Shown here piece after piece: positions 3,082-37,166 of a stretch of 41,794 nucleotides of DNA. The stretch is from Thioalkalivibrio sp. (GTDB lineage: Bacteria > Pseudomonadota > Gammaproteobacteria > Ectothiorhodospirales > Ectothiorhodospiraceae). A program made the translations under genes and the position numbers. Below the pieces are notes generated by a model. The model worked only from the letters and a program-made list of their open reading frames with translations, ran no database searches and was not told where the DNA came from. The stretch is taken from assembly GCA_011389655.1 (NCBI GenBank), contig JAABTX010000018.1, positions 1 through 41,794 on the forward strand. The letters run 5' to 3'. Each line of letters begins with the position of its first letter. Within the stretch, counting starts at the first letter, position 1.

Positions 3082-3185
3082 ATCGCGGCTGGAAGCCGCT
3101 CCCACGGGGGGTCTCGTAGGAGCGGCCTCTGGCCGCGATCGGGCCGGGCCTGACCAGGGGAATCGCGGCTGCAAGCCGCTCCCAC
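3082..3185. repeat. REP hairpin cluster (3 copies)
   Basis: Three 24-bp copies of a palindromic element lie at 3082-3105 (minus orientation), 3116-3139 (plus) and 3162-3185 (minus). The plus-strand form begins GTAGGAGCGGC and ends GCCGCGAT. The core is GCGGCY-N3-RGCCGC, a 6-bp stem with a 3-base loop. The same family recurs at 40031-40254. Alternating orientation is typical of REP/REPIN elements mobilised by RAYT (TnpA-REP) transposases; no such transposase is in this window. The cluster fills the gap between the convergent ends of the unknown gene and soeC and may also stop transcription. Confidence 0.85.
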
Positions 3186-3204
3186 GCGTGACGGGGAATG
3201 CCGC

Positions 3205-4188
3205 TCAGGCCACCGACTGGTAGTAGAGGTTCTGCGGGTGATTCGCCTGGGCAAAGAAGAACCAGCGTTCGGCGACCAGCCCGAGGTACTGGATCAGGGC
3301 CGCGGCGATCAGCACGCTGGTCGGATCGACCGTCATCAGCAGGCTCACGGCCAGCAGTATCGTCGGGATGGCGAAGGCGGCGATCAGGAAGATCCACTTC
3401 ACCGCGCGGACGAATCCCTCCGACTTGTGGTGGAAGAACTCGCGGGTGTTGAAGGACCCGCCCATGAAGCCCTGCGATTTCTGCACGATGCGGGGGTGCT
3501 TGACCCCGATCGCGGTCTGCAGCGTCGACTTGGGCTTGATCCTCGCGTTGCGGATCAGCGAGGCGATTCGCGTGACCAGACCGAGCAGGGTCAGCGCGAT
3601 CGCGGTCGACGCCAGCACGTGCACCAGCTGTGCTCCCGACCACGCGGCATAGGCGGTGGCGAGGGTAAAGCCGGAGGCGGCACCGAGCACGGTGTAGTTC
3701 ACCACGGTCAGCGGCGAGTGCCATTCCTGCAGGAATTTCACGGCCGCATAGATCATCGCGGTGCTCACGAAGAGCGCCACCGCCAGCAGCGTGCCCGCCA
3801 TGCCGAGGGCCACCGTCACCAGCACCGCGCGGTCGCCGGGCAGCGTGAGCAGCGTCGGATTGAAGTTCAGCCAGTGCGCGAGGCCGTACAGGAAGACCAC
3901 ACCCATGAAGGCCGGCAGCACGATGACCTCGCGCGAGAGCCATGAGGTGCGCCACTTTGTCGCGGTGCGCCAGGCTCGCTCCGGGCGGCCGAGGTGGAAG
4001 AAGGATGCGATCAGACCGAGCCCGAGCAGGATCAGGGAGGCCAGTGTTCCGAGCGCAAGGAAGTTCCCGTTCTGTGTCGGCGCCATGCCAAGGAGCCCCA
4101 GGGACTCCGTCAGGAACAGCGCGATGAAGAGCCCCTGACCGGCGCCGATCAGGGTGGTGAGGAAGATCACGGAGAAGGCAGGATGCAT
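3205..4188 (-). CDS. soeC: Sulfite dehydrogenase membrane anchor subunit (DmsC/NrfD-like)
   Basis: Integral membrane subunit that anchors the SoeAB catalytic dimer to the cytoplasmic face of the inner membrane and passes sulfite-derived electrons to quinone. The 327-residue protein is almost wholly hydrophobic, with about eight predicted transmembrane helices beginning MHPAFSVIFLTTLIGAGQG, as in DmsC-family anchors; FHLGRPERAW (about 68-77) is a conserved loop in this family. The start at 4188 follows AGGGAAG and lies 17 bp after the soeB stop, so the longer open frame reaching into soeB is not used. It is the last gene of soeABC. A polysulfide or tetrathionate reductase anchor is the main alternative, judged less likely because the catalytic subunit lacks an export signal. 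Confidence 0.85.
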   Translation of the reverse strand: MHPAFSVIFLTTLIGAGQGLFIALFLTESLGLLGMAPTQNGNFLALGTLASLILLGLGLIASFFHLGRPERAWRTATKWRTSWLSREVIVLPAFMGVVFLYGLAHWLNFNPTLLTLPGDRAVLVTVALGMAGTLLAVALFVSTAMIYAAVKFLQEWHSPLTVVNYTVLGAASGFTLATAYAAWSGAQLVHVLASTAIALTLLGLVTRIASLIRNARIKPKSTLQTAIGVKHPRIVQKSQGFMGGSFNTREFFHHKSEGFVRAVKWIFLIAAFAIPTILLAVSLLMTVDPTSVLIAAALIQYLGLVAERWFFFAQANHPQNLYYQSVA

Positions 4189-33169: not shown

Positions 33170-36100
33170 ATGCACATGCAAGGCAGTACGCACCTGCACG
33201 CCGTCTCCATCGAGACCCCGGAGGTTCCGATGCAAACCGCCTCCACCGAGATCTGGGACCAGAAGTACCGCCTGAAGACCAAGGAGGGTGCGGTCCTCGA
33301 CCGCGACATCGACGGTACCTGGAAGCGCGTTGCCCGCGCGCTCGCGGACATCGAGGCAACGCCGGAGCTGCGCGAGCACTGGTACGAGCGGTTCCTGTGG
33401 GCCCTGCGCCACGGCGCGATCCCGGCCGGACGCATCATCGCGAACGCCGGCGCCCGGGCGCACAAGCCGGCGACCTCGACGATCAACTGCACGGTCTCCG
33501 GCACCATCCACGACTCGATGGACGACATCCTGCAGAAGCTGCACGAGGCCGGGATGACACTGAAGGCGGGGTCTGGTATCGGCTATGAATTCAGTACGTT
33601 GCGCCCGCGTGGCGCCTACGTGACCGGGGCCGGCGCGTACACCTCCGGGCCGCTGTCCTTCATGGACATCTACGACAAGATGTGCTTCACGATCTCCTCC
33701 GCCGGTGGCCGTCGCGGCGCGCAGATGGCCACCTTCGACATCGGCCACCCGGACGTGGTCGAGTTCATCCGCGCGAAGCGGGCCGACGGGACGCTGCGCC
33801 AGTTCAACCTGTCGCTGCTGATCACCGCCGACTTCATGGCCGCGGTGCAGAACGACGACGCCTGGCCGCTGGCATTCCCGATCACCGAGGTGGAGGCCGC
33901 GCAGGGCGGCATCGACCTGAACGACCCCGCGCAGGTGCTCTGGCGCGACTGGGCCGACACCGAGGGCTACATCGTCAACGACGGGGGGCAGGTCGCCTGC
34001 CGCATCTACAGGACGATCCGCGCCCGCCGCCTGTGGGACCTGATCATGTCCTCCACCTACGACTTCGCCGAGCCGGGCTTCATCCTGATCGACAAGGTCA
34101 ACGAGATGAACAACAACTGGTGGTGCGAGGAGATCCGCGCGACCAACCCGTGCGTGACTGGCGACACCTGGGTACAGACGGACGCCGGTCCGCAACGTGT
34201 ACAGGATCTTCTGGGCCGTCCGTTCTGCGCCCGTGTTGACGGTGAAGATCATGCCAGTGGCGCCGAAGGTTTCTTCCGCACCGCGACCCGGGAAGTACTT
34301 CGGCTGAATACCAGCGAGGGACCGATGTTGCGTCTCACCGATAATCATCCCGTGCGTCGAGTGGTTCGGCAGACGCGCTGGTCGCTGGAAACCGAATGGT
34401 GCGAGGCGGGGAGACTTGGCGTGGGCGACCGGGTGCTCCTGAACGATCATCGGGGCAACGCCGAGTGGGCGGGTCCCCGAACCTGGGAAGAGGGATACCT
34501 GCTCGGATTGTTGGTTGGTGACGGCACGCTGAAGCGGGACGCTGCCGTGCTGTCGGTCTGGTCGGCGGAACCCGCGGCCAACGGTGGTGATTTCTGTTCC
34601 AACCCACTGATGGAAGAAGCCCGGCGCTGCGCGGGCACGTTAACGCATCGCGCCGACTTTGCCGGCTGGACGGAGATCAAGGGCCGCGGCGAATATCGAA
34701 TGAAGCTCGCGGCGCTCCGAGATCTCGCGTTCGAACTCGGAATGCGGCCAGGCGCAAAGGGGGTGACCCCGACGATGGAAATGACCTCCAGTGCCTTCCA
34801 CCGTGGTTTTCTCCGGGGAATATTCGACGCTGACGGGTCCGTTCAGGGCTCACTGGACAAGGGCGTAAGCGTGCGCCTGGCCCAGTCGGACGGGCCGCGT
34901 CTTGAGGCGGTACAGCGAATGCTTCTGCGCCTTGGCATTGCCTCCAGGCTCTACCGGGATCGTCGACCCGCCGGGAATGCAATGCTGCCTGACGGTAAGG
35001 GCGACCGGAAAGCGTATCCTGTTCGCTCACAGCATGAACTCGTGGTGAGTGGGGACAACCTCGGCATTTTTGCGGCGCTGGTCGGGTTTGCCGACCCGGT
35101 GAAGGCCACGCGTCTGGCCACGTTTCTTGGTAGCTATCGACGTCGGTTGAATCGGGAACGCTTCATTGTGCAGGTAGAGTCTCTGGTGCCGGACGGCATT
35201 GAGGACGTTTTTGACGTTCAGGTTCCTGGCATCAATGCCTTCGATGCCAACGGCTTCTATGTACACAACTGCGGCGAACAGCCATTGCCGGCCTACGGTG
35301 CCTGCCTGCTCGGCTCGATCAACCTGACGCGCTTCGTGCAGGAGCCCTTCACGGACCGGGCCAGCTTCGACTGGGAGGGCTTCCGCGAGACGGTCGCGGT
35401 GTTCACCCGGATGCTGGACAACGTCGTCGAGATCAACGGTCTGCCGCTGCCGCAGCAGCGCGAGGAGGTCATGCGCAAGCGGCGGCACGGCATGGGCTAC
35501 CTCGGGCTCGGGTCGGTACTGACGATGATGCGCATGAAGTACGGCGCCGAGGACTCGCTGCGTTTCACCGAGGAGGTCACCCGCGAGATGGCGCTCGCGG
35601 GTTGGCGCGCCGGGCTGGAGCTCGCGCGCGAGAAGGGTTCGGCCCCGGTCCTGGACGAGGAGTTCACGGTCACCGCGAAGATGCTGCGCCAGCGCCCCGA
35701 GATGGTGCGCGACGGCTTCGGTCCCGGCGATCGGGTGAAGGGACGGGTCCTGCACGCGCGGTACAGCCGCTACATGCAGCGCGTCGCCGAGGTGGACCCG
35801 GAACTGGTGGAACAGCTCGCCGCCGAGGGTTGCCGCTTCACCCACCACAGCTCCATCGCGCCGACCGGCACCATCTCGCTGTCGCTGGCGAACAACGCAA
35901 GCAACGGCATCGAACCGAGCTTCGCCCACCACTACGCCCGCAACGTGATCCGCAGCGGCAAGAAGTCCAAGGAGAAGGTGGATGTCTTCTCCTACGAGCT
36001 GCTGGCCTACCGCGAGAAGGTGAATGCGCGCGCGATGCCATATTCCGAGGTGGAGGAGGAGCAGCTGCCGGATTACTTCATCACCGCGGACGACGTCTCG

Positions 36101-36451
36101 CCGAAGGCGCACGTGGACGTTCAGGCGGCGGCACAGAAGTGGATCGACTCGTCCATCTCCAAGACCGCCAACGTGCCGACGGACTACGCCTTCGAGGCCT
36201 TCAAGGACATCTACCTCTATGCCTGGCAGCGGGGCCTGAAGGGCTGCACCACCTTCCGGTTCAACCCGGAGGCCTTCCAGGGTGTGCTGGTCAAGGAAAA
36301 GGATCTCGAGAGCACCACCTACCGGTTCGTGCTGGAGGACGGCACGGTGATCGAGGCCAGGGGGAACGAGGAGATCGAGTACGACGGCGAGACCCACTAC
36401 GCCGCGAACCTCTACGATGCCCTGAAGGAAGGGTACTACGGCAAGTTCTGA
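33170..36451 (+). CDS. nrdJa: Class II ribonucleotide reductase NrdJ(a), intein-containing precursor
   Basis: Adenosylcobalamin-dependent ribonucleotide reductase making deoxynucleotides without oxygen or a diiron subunit. The 1093-residue precursor contains a 373-residue intein (residues 328-700), leaving a 720-residue enzyme. Catalytic cysteines are C107 (INCTVSG) and C712 (YGACLLG), the redox pair, and C701 in CGEQPLP, the thiyl-radical cysteine; the 11-residue spacing between the last two matches the Lactobacillus leichmannii enzyme (C408, C419). Glu703 completes the N-x-C-x-E active site. No ATP-cone is evident at the N-terminus. The start follows AAAGGA. The redox C-terminal part is encoded by the next gene, as in the split NrdJa/NrdJb of Pseudomonas aeruginosa. 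Confidence 0.95.
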   Translation: MHMQGSTHLHAVSIETPEVPMQTASTEIWDQKYRLKTKEGAVLDRDIDGTWKRVARALADIEATPELREHWYERFLWALRHGAIPAGRIIANAGARAHKPATSTINCTVSGTIHDSMDDILQKLHEAGMTLKAGSGIGYEFSTLRPRGAYVTGAGAYTSGPLSFMDIYDKMCFTISSAGGRRGAQMATFDIGHPDVVEFIRAKRADGTLRQFNLSLLITADFMAAVQNDDAWPLAFPITEVEAAQGGIDLNDPAQVLWRDWADTEGYIVNDGGQVACRIYRTIRARRLWDLIMSSTYDFAEPGFILIDKVNEMNNNWWCEEIRATNPCVTGDTWVQTDAGPQRVQDLLGRPFCARVDGEDHASGAEGFFRTATREVLRLNTSEGPMLRLTDNHPVRRVVRQTRWSLETEWCEAGRLGVGDRVLLNDHRGNAEWAGPRTWEEGYLLGLLVGDGTLKRDAAVLSVWSAEPAANGGDFCSNPLMEEARRCAGTLTHRADFAGWTEIKGRGEYRMKLAALRDLAFELGMRPGAKGVTPTMEMTSSAFHRGFLRGIFDADGSVQGSLDKGVSVRLAQSDGPRLEAVQRMLLRLGIASRLYRDRRPAGNAMLPDGKGDRKAYPVRSQHELVVSGDNLGIFAALVGFADPVKATRLATFLGSYRRRLNRERFIVQVESLVPDGIEDVFDVQVPGINAFDANGFYVHNCGEQPLPAYGACLLGSINLTRFVQEPFTDRASFDWEGFRETVAVFTRMLDNVVEINGLPLPQQREEVMRKRRHGMGYLGLGSVLTMMRMKYGAEDSLRFTEEVTREMALAGWRAGLELAREKGSAPVLDEEFTVTAKMLRQRPEMVRDGFGPGDRVKGRVLHARYSRYMQRVAEVDPELVEQLAAEGCRFTHHSSIAPTGTISLSLANNASNGIEPSFAHHYARNVIRSGKKSKEKVDVFSYELLAYREKVNARAMPYSEVEEEQLPDYFITADDVSPKAHVDVQAAAQKWIDSSISKTANVPTDYAFEAFKDIYLYAWQRGLKGCTTFRFNPEAFQGVLVKEKDLESTTYRFVLEDGTVIEARGNEEIEYDGETHYAANLYDALKEGYYGKF
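34151..35269 (+). mobile_element. LAGLIDADG intein in NrdJa at the catalytic cysteine
   Basis: In-frame 373-residue intein with all splicing blocks. Block A starts at Cys1 (CVTGDTWV), block B has T63-x-x-H66 (LTDNHPV), and the end reads FYVHN with penultimate His372 and Asn373, followed by extein Cys+1. The homing endonuclease has both DOD motifs, YLLGLLVGDG (116-125) and FLRGIFDADG (220-229), each with an acidic residue at the catalytic position, so it looks intact. Insertion is between NP and CGEQ, so Cys+1 is the enzyme's thiyl-radical cysteine. The DNA is visibly less GC-rich at third positions than the exteins, pointing to horizontal acquisition. Confidence 0.96.
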
Positions 36452-36467: not shown

Positions 36468-37166
36468 ATGACCATTCGAATCGAAAAGAAGATCACCGGC
36501 TACGAGGTCGCCCGCGAGGAGCCGGCTGCGGGGAAGCCCGCGGCGGCGCCGGAGGCCGAGGACAAGGTCGTGCAGATGCACGAGAAGCTCGAGCGGCCGG
36601 AGATGCTGATGGGATCCACGTACAAGATCAAGACGCCGCTCTCCGAGCATGCGCTGTACGTGACCATCAACGACGTGGTGCTGAACCCGGGCACCGAACA
36701 CGAGTTGCGCCGGCCCTTCGAGATCTTCATCAACTCGAAGAACATGGACCACTTCCAGTGGATCGTCGCGCTCACGCGGATCATCTCGGCGGTATTCCGC
36801 AAGGGTGGCGACGTGACCTTCCTGGTCGAGGAGCTGCGCTCGGTCTTCGATCCGCGCGGCGGCTATTTCAAGAAGGGTGGTCGGTACATGCCCTCCCTGG
36901 TTGCCGAGATCGGGGACGCGATCGAAGGGCACATGCGCATGATCGGGCTGATCAAGGATGATGGTCTGGACGAGCACCAGCGCCGGCACATCGAGGAGAA
37001 GCGTGCCCAGTTCGAGGCGAGCCGCAATCTCGCGAAGACGGAGACTGACCCGGGTGACCCCTTTCCCCCGGGCGCGCAGCTCTGCAGCAAGTGCAACACC
37101 CGGGCGGTGGTGGCCATGGACAACTGCCTGACCTGCCTGAATTGCGGGGAGAGCAAGTGCGGGTAG
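36468..37166 (+). CDS. nrdJb: Class II ribonucleotide reductase C-terminal subunit NrdJb
   Basis: A 232-residue protein corresponding to the C-terminal TSCPD region of class II reductases and to NrdJb of Pseudomonas aeruginosa. NDVVLNPGTEHELRRPFEIFIN (residues about 68-89) and the SLVAEIGDAIEGHM helix are typical of that domain. The end has CSKCNTRAVVAMDNCLTCLNCGESKCG-type cysteines (CSKC, CLTC, NCGESKC in the last 27 residues), a zinc ribbon plus the flexible CxxxC tail that re-reduces the active-site disulfide. It begins 16 bp after nrdJa and is surely co-transcribed. The two chains must associate to form a working enzyme. Confidence 0.88.
   Translation: MTIRIEKKITGYEVAREEPAAGKPAAAPEAEDKVVQMHEKLERPEMLMGSTYKIKTPLSEHALYVTINDVVLNPGTEHELRRPFEIFINSKNMDHFQWIVALTRIISAVFRKGGDVTFLVEELRSVFDPRGGYFKKGGRYMPSLVAEIGDAIEGHMRMIGLIKDDGLDEHQRRHIEEKRAQFEASRNLAKTETDPGDPFPPGAQLCSKCNTRAVVAMDNCLTCLNCGESKCG

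Follow-up and report, generated by a model that had tools for sequence, protein, structure and literature searches.

Within its nrdJ gene, Thioalkalivibrio sp. very probably carries a full-length class 1 LAGLIDADG intein, apparently competent for both splicing and homing, most likely rir1-b, lodged in NrdJa and kept there without a regulatory role. The window is the whole analysed stretch of 41,794 nucleotides (contig JAABTX010000018.1), and positions below refer to it. The anatomy of the element, its insertion site, its pattern of occupancy, selection on both of its domains and its spread among relatives are observed directly. Both the intein and its site are already known; the element is mobile and widespread, and the window adds a further copy of it.

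A single forward-strand frame (33170–36451, 1093 aa) is open across both exteins and the insert. The N-extein of NrdJa (33170–34150, start codon uncertain) ends in IRATNP and matches TIGR02504 and PF02867, while the C-extein (35270–36448) begins with CGEQPLPAYGAC and likewise gives family matches; the exteins match NrdJ_Z at 561 bits (cut-off 400). Between them lie 1119 nt (34151–35269) encoding 373 residues, in frame and free of frameshifts. In precursor numbering Cys1 is residue 328, Asn373 is residue 700 and Cys+1 is residue 701, and the joined exteins amount to 720 aa, a figure that presumes the ATG at 33170 as the start. Homology to many relatives starts near residues 11–18, so that the ATG at 33230 (700 aa) is also possible. 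PRK08332, a family model of B12-dependent ribonucleotide reductases (RNRs), aligns unbroken through the intein into the C-extein. Empty alleles of the same gene in relatives indicate that the intein is not a chance feature.

The insert begins with a cysteine, contains T-x-x-H, ends in His-Asn and is followed in frame by a cysteine at +1, as in class 1 inteins. Conservation of these residues is given for 81 aligned sequences, the best 80 of 570 relatives plus the window. Cys1 (34151–34153), the first splicing nucleophile, is found in 81/81, one search pattern itself containing this residue. Thr63 and His66 of T-x-x-H (34337–34348), which we take to be block B, are each present in 81/81, as are His372 and Asn373 at the end of the C-terminal splicing region VFDVQVPGINAFDANGFYVHN (35207–35269), which scores 19.6 bits against TIGR01443 (cut-off 15.6). 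The endonuclease has two LAGLIDADG motifs with acidic residues, GYLLGLLVGDG (34493–34525; Asp124, 81/81) and FLRGIFDADG (34808–34837; Asp228, 79/81), and intein residues 216–312 match LAGLIDADG_3 (4.4e-23). The Pfam Intein_splicing match is weak (21.1 bits, under the cut-off of 35.8); with the splicing residues present and the TIGR01443 cut-off passed, we read this as a shortfall in model score. An AlphaFold model of the intein (mean pLDDT 88.4) can be superposed along most of its chain on full-length LAGLIDADG inteins (7qsu, Z 26.4; 1dq3, Z 25.6), and the structure comparison thus predicts a Hint fold together with a LAGLIDADG fold.

The first-pass annotation of this DNA, made from the letters alone, was right to the base in its boundaries and residue numbers (34151–35269; Cys1, His372-Asn373; precursor 701). 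Its view that the splicing and endonuclease motifs are intact holds as well, the key residues being present in the window copy and invariant or nearly so in the 81 aligned sequences (best 80 of 570 plus the window). Loss of Cys1, His372 or Asn373, or a frameshift, had been named as fatal to that view; all three residues are present and the frame is unbroken. An assembly chimera, a frameshift or a broken nrdJ would be conceivable in an assembly as fragmented as this one (367 contigs), but such an artefact has a negligible probability: no frameshift is seen, open precursors 95% identical to this one occur in two independent assemblies (G036 and G038), and the same junctions recur in 80/80 loci (best 80 of 570).

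The residue immediately after the intein is the catalytic one. In an alignment with 1xje, the class II RNR chain of T. maritima, precursor Cys701 (35270–35272) falls opposite residue 322, and Cys712 (35303–35305) takes the position of Cys333. We take Cys322 of T. maritima NrdJ to be the thiyl-radical cysteine and Cys333 its redox partner cysteine. With the radical role assigned in this way, the alignment agrees with the earlier proposal that the splicing nucleophile Cys+1 is also the future radical cysteine. The accompanying claim, that the active-site N-P-C-x-E is disrupted until splicing, stands in part: the precursor lacks x-E and an uninterrupted loop, but N-P-C is still read, at Cys1.

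The gene at 33170–36451 is NrdJa of a split class II RNR, a point that the earlier annotation overlooked. A separate gene downstream on the same strand, NrdJb (36468–37166), encodes the TSCPD domain (PF12637, 3.3e-08; PRK08665 positions 585–759) and the C-terminal cysteine-rich tail (CSKC...CLTCLNCGESKCG), neither of which is found on NrdJa. Accessible text on Pseudomonas aeruginosa describes a split NrdJa/NrdJb of which both subunits are needed for activity (PMC4520616), and a subclade of split class II enzymes has been described, as far as the available text goes (PMC9669993). By analogy the mature enzyme of the window should also need NrdJb, so two assembly steps are expected, cis-splicing of NrdJa and then pairing with NrdJb. 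P. aeruginosa resembles the window in having two genes, for a catalytic and a dithiol-exchange subunit; it differs in that the available part of its description mentions no intein and that the enzyme is one of three RNR classes (PMC4520616), whereas the window genome has a sole detected RNR. A strict motif search of the 80 loci (best 80 of 570) placed NrdJb in a gene of its own in 37 and the tail in a fusion in 2, with neither in 41; given the strictness of the motif, and a short flank in 10 of the 41, this last number is not a count of absences. Upstream lie a phosphomannomutase-like gene and, on the opposite strand, a class II aldolase gene. At the gathering threshold the tRNA is the sole Rfam match in the window; no cobalamin riboswitch appears.

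Relatives of the intein are widespread. Two peptide patterns, themselves containing Cys1 and Cys84, retrieved 570 from contigs representing one genome per species. Among the best 80 of these, identity to the window intein is 59–93% in 80/80 loci, which shows its relatedness to the other inteins at the site, and the insertion falls between NP and CGEQ with a terminal HN in every locus, so that the search for a shared insertion site urged by the first-pass annotation yielded just that. The closest named relatives among the best 80 are Thioalkalivibrio assemblies, the others being mostly further Gammaproteobacteria (Rhodanobacter, Dyella, Stutzerimonas, Xanthomonas sp.). Loci L069–L072 and L134 are probably the same records as genomes G036, G038, G028, G015 and G035; alignment A2 was built from the window and 39 of the 80 loci, A3 from the window and 33. 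Across 276 genomes sampled evenly from the class, 30 gave any match and 17, the window genome counted, a full-length match of at least 55% identity. Viral stretches also carry the pattern (n = 54), and 27 of them encode intein relatives, which start right after NP in 26/27 and have a plausible C[GSA]E junction in 20/27, a junction that the pattern required.

Intein-free nrdJ, which the first-pass annotation had suggested looking for, is common close by. Across the 47 genomes of the order the junction is readable in 37, with an intein at the site in 12 and none in 25; the latter include G040, which the script pattern missed and whose 722-aa frame marks it as empty. The remaining ten comprise two truncated genes, six genomes with a class I match only and two without a match.

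The surveyed genomes hold other insertions as well. A second, distant intein family (family B) occupies the same site in L036, L037 and L041 (genomes G014, G003 and G031); it is 28–35% identical to the window's family (family A) in a comparison that omits G031, and it ends in Gly-Gln, not His-Asn. The G014 copy has Asn in place of the second LAGLIDADG Asp. L044 and L045 (G009 and G008) encode a 493-residue intein directly before the partner cysteine, between GA and CLLGS, 11 residues past the thiyl cysteine. In L065 (G044) an extra in-frame stretch of about 60 residues lies within the NrdJ C-extein, without intein-like ends by eye. An intein ending SHN before SGAIEQD is found in L068 (351–3008, minus strand; G015), in a predicted DnaB protein, presumably the replicative helicase, with a similar match in G034.

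Homing within the clade is well supported. On an extein tree of 35 rows, the states at the locus (family A, family B, second-site intein or none) require at least 8 changes, and well-supported sisters differ: G015 has the intein and G034 does not, G043 has it and G044 does not, and G013 carries family A where G014 carries family B. The tree included G040 by its whole ORF and left out G030, G031 and G037 (incomplete), G033, G042, genomes without a class II match and the G016 plasmid copy. The 8 changes compare with a mean of 12.1 for shuffled labels, and none of 200 shuffles was as low; occupancy is thus patchy but more clustered than shuffled, and partly inherited. The endonuclease is under purifying selection: five inteins compared in 10 pairs give omega of 0.08–0.22 for the endonuclease part and 0.06–0.16 for the splicing part, against 0.07–0.11 for the exteins (6 pairs, the 4 G028 pairs being excluded for unequal length).

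Silent divergence, compared for seven pairs with trimmed exteins, adds to this picture. Among G036, G038 and G028 it is 2.7–5.1 times lower in the intein than in the exteins, with intervals apart (intein versus extein dS: G036/G038, 0.066 versus 0.225; G036/G028, 0.156 versus 0.425; G038/G028, 0.086 versus 0.436), and the intervals are also apart for the window genome, G000, against G028 (0.247 versus 0.421). On the other hand, the values are equal within error for G000/G036 (0.279 versus 0.251) and G000/G038 (0.204 versus 0.226), and for G000/G015 the intein is not lower (0.902 versus 0.683, intervals overlapping). The window copy is therefore not reduced in silent divergence relative to its two nearest relatives, and its own arrival need not be recent. 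The earlier suggestion of a recently active homing element thus carries over to the clade, through sister occupancy, purifying selection and low dS, but not to a recent arrival in the window's lineage.

Composition gives a similar answer. GC3 is 0.942 in the N-extein, 0.673 in the intein and 0.926 in the C-extein, so the predicted dip relative to the flanks is there; the intein is also lower in 79/80 relatives (best 80 of 570; median gap 0.110), and with this shared sign the gap alone is no proof of recent arrival. Its size in the window, 0.265, is matched by 1/80 relatives (best 80 of 570). We rejected GC3 as the sole evidence of recent arrival given the same sign in 79/80 relatives (best 80 of 570). 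We likewise set aside co-conversion as a main argument: in an identity table of 10/12 carriers (G038 and G031 omitted), the dips of G013/G014 to 72% and 78% in the first 180 nt of the C-extein fit it, and other pairs show little.

These data also bear on whether the element is a vertically inherited remnant that splices as it must and whose endonuclease is dead or unconstrained. The agreement of intein and extein silent divergences in G000/G036 and G000/G038 would suit such a history, as would the clustering of occupancy on the tree and the Asn found at the second catalytic Asp in 2/81 sequences (best 80 of 570 plus the window; one is L134, the G035 copy), which indicates that the endonuclease does decay. 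It is nevertheless a very unlikely account of the window copy, which has both LAGLIDADG Asp residues, and of a clade in which endonuclease omega is well below 1, sisters differ in occupancy and intein dS is low in G036, G038 and G028. The homing-competent intein remains the preferred reading, and the pairs G015/G034, G043/G044 and G013/G014 are natural ones for measuring homing.

Splicing, cleavage and the inactivity of the precursor are inferred from established intein biochemistry. In the window genome (99.6% completeness, 367 contigs) the RNR barrel family is matched once, and searches for the NrdB and NrdD families gave nothing; in 14 control genomes the same searches were positive in 11, 7 and 6, respectively. 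With one RNR detected in this assembly, splicing is probably needed for dNTPs, and the first-pass statement that dNTP synthesis depends on it should hold. Splicing dependence is not a general trait of the element. The 12 carriers of the order divide into six without another RNR (G000, G036, G038 and G015, plus G028 and G035, which are less complete) and six with a further one (G013, G014, G003, G043, G016 and G031, the NrdB match of G031 being a short piece). By these searches G001, G004, G006 and G007 have class II RNR only, and they are intein-free.

The first-pass annotation raised the idea that splicing is conditional. In a reading of this kind NrdJ would be kept inactive by an oxidised Cys1, Cys+1 or Cys84, or by some other signal, and the intein would be retained for regulation; this we consider very unlikely. 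The sole RNR detected in the window genome fits it, as does Cys84 (34400–34402), a non-catalytic cysteine kept in 79/81 sequences (best 80 of 570 plus the window; a mild overestimate, one of the two search patterns containing it). Redox control has been shown for the M. smegmatis DnaBi1 intein, according to the accessible text (PMC6195587), which describes a redox-trap intein; the window intein offers Cys84 only as a candidate for the reversible disulfide that would block splicing in such an element. Against regulation, empty alleles are common (25/37 genomes of the order with readable junctions) and class-II-only relatives are among them, 6/12 carriers have a further RNR, and family B occupies the same site without Cys84; homing alone explains both the conservation of the endonuclease and the spread of the intein. 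Redox-conditional splicing is unsupported, Cys1 and Cys+1 being common to ordinary Cys-type class 1 inteins. Our search of cysteine conservation and RNR redundancy for signs of it gave only Cys84, and carriers both with and without a further RNR. We drew nothing from the precursor model of A3 (mean pLDDT 70.0), as its confidence around the junctions is low. Gating through Cys84 with Cys1 or Cys+1, by which a sole-RNR cell would hold a silent pool of NrdJ precursor, we regard as similarly unlikely; were it true, gated splicing would set dNTP supply post-translationally by redox state.

Nor is the host new, contrary to the first-pass annotation, since the available text of PMC4071816 already names four Thioalkalivibrio strains (K90mix, ALE11, ALE30 and HL-Eb18) in its rir1-b list. 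One of our genomes, G016, is Thioalkalivibrio sp. K90mix, of the same genus as the window genome: its second contig is identical to plasmid pTK9001 across 2501 compared bases, and its chromosomal nrdJ carries a same-site intein. Its listing under rir1-b, together with its sole intein-size RNR insertion being at this site, makes the window intein most likely rir1-b, an equation that rests on that one insertion and not on a published coordinate. The two inteins share genus, gene and, by this reasoning, site, and are 60% identical; K90mix is another species, and its intein has 378 residues against 373.

More distant systems share single features. The intein in the SPbeta phage bnrdE gene (NC_001884.1) also lies directly before the equivalent cysteine, following SNL, running from C to GN and preceding CSEV; it differs in residing in a phage NrdE (which we take to be class Ib), in 22% identity and in a Gly-Asn end where the window has His-Asn, and bnrdE also has an intron. 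PI-PfuI (1dq3), presumably from a Pyrococcus RNR, has the full intein fold with a LAGLIDADG domain (Z 25.6, 323 residues aligned), but it is archaeal, has 454 residues and is 17% identical. The RNR intein MCA2543 of Methylococcus capsulatus, reported in 2004, is gammaproteobacterial like that of the window and unlike it is described, in the accessible text, as similar to archaeal inteins (PMC517821). In Aquifex aeolicus R2 an RNR intein likewise separates catalytic residues until splicing, these being metal ligands of the radical-generating subunit, whereas in the window it is the thiyl cysteine that is concerned (PMC8772380, as far as its available text goes). The accessible portions of the literature on RNR inteins (PMC8772380, PMC6370689 and PMC2795772 among them, but few subscription papers) do not state that the +1 nucleophile is the radical cysteine.

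The most interesting by-finding of the analysis concerns introns at the same codon. A second nrdJ of K90mix, on plasmid pTK9001, has a 293-nt insert that follows the T of this cysteine codon and ends in G (L040 2583–2875; NC_013930.1 about 3082–3374). Joining its flanks restores NPCGEQ, and no gene is entered at this locus in the gene table of the plasmid collection, from which pseudogenes are omitted. The nrdJ of G123 has a homologous 287-nt insert at the same point (L179 1470–1756), the two being 75% identical across the 99 positions that align. Each of these group-I-like inserts contains a complete hairpin with a GNRA cap and a complete P7-like pair; within these two helices both sides have changed in 6/12 pairs, a level reached by 12/500 shuffles, for two sequences and helices picked after viewing. 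On visual inspection, the exon end CCGU could pair with a GCGG close to the 5' end of either insert.

Ten viral contigs (L183–L192) share the core motif of this intron. In L183 it interrupts a major-head-protein gene, and in L184, L186 and L190 endonuclease genes lie just downstream (endonuclease VII-like, HNH and LAGLIDADG); protein-family searches of these loci covered five frames from four of the ten contigs. Rfam returned no match at gathering for the intron-like inserts and none at E 1 for 441 bases of L040, only two weak miRNA matches far under gathering for L179 and L180, and none at gathering for the ten viral loci. Wider searches for the intron gave hits in 1/47 genomes of the order (itself), in 2/274 of the class (one, G135, a 21-base match) and in 2/398 of the phylum, where each match spans 34 bases and is regarded as fortuitous. 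Judged from sequence, the inserts seem to belong to a family of mobile group I introns that escapes the current Rfam model. The coincidence of introns and inteins was reportedly noted before by Derbyshire and Belfort in 1998, to go by their title.

For the intein itself, the course of events would be that of a class 1 element. An acyl shift at Cys1 would be followed by transfer to Cys+1, cyclisation of Asn373 and an S–N shift joining Pro327 to Cys701. Cys701 would thereby become the radical cysteine of the spliced NrdJa, which would then pair with NrdJb. The LAGLIDADG domain would cut empty nrdJ alleles at the thiyl-cysteine codon, and the intein would be copied in. We attribute its persistence to its place in an essential catalytic loop, from which an insert cannot be lost imprecisely, and not to regulation.

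The window thus illustrates cleanly what makes catalytic codons a home for mobile self-splicing elements: such a codon is a target that cannot drift, and losing the insert imprecisely should kill the enzyme. In different nrdJ genes, the thiyl-cysteine codon of RNR is held by two intein families (about 30% identical) and a group-I-like intron, and a further intein sits at the partner cysteine of NrdJ.
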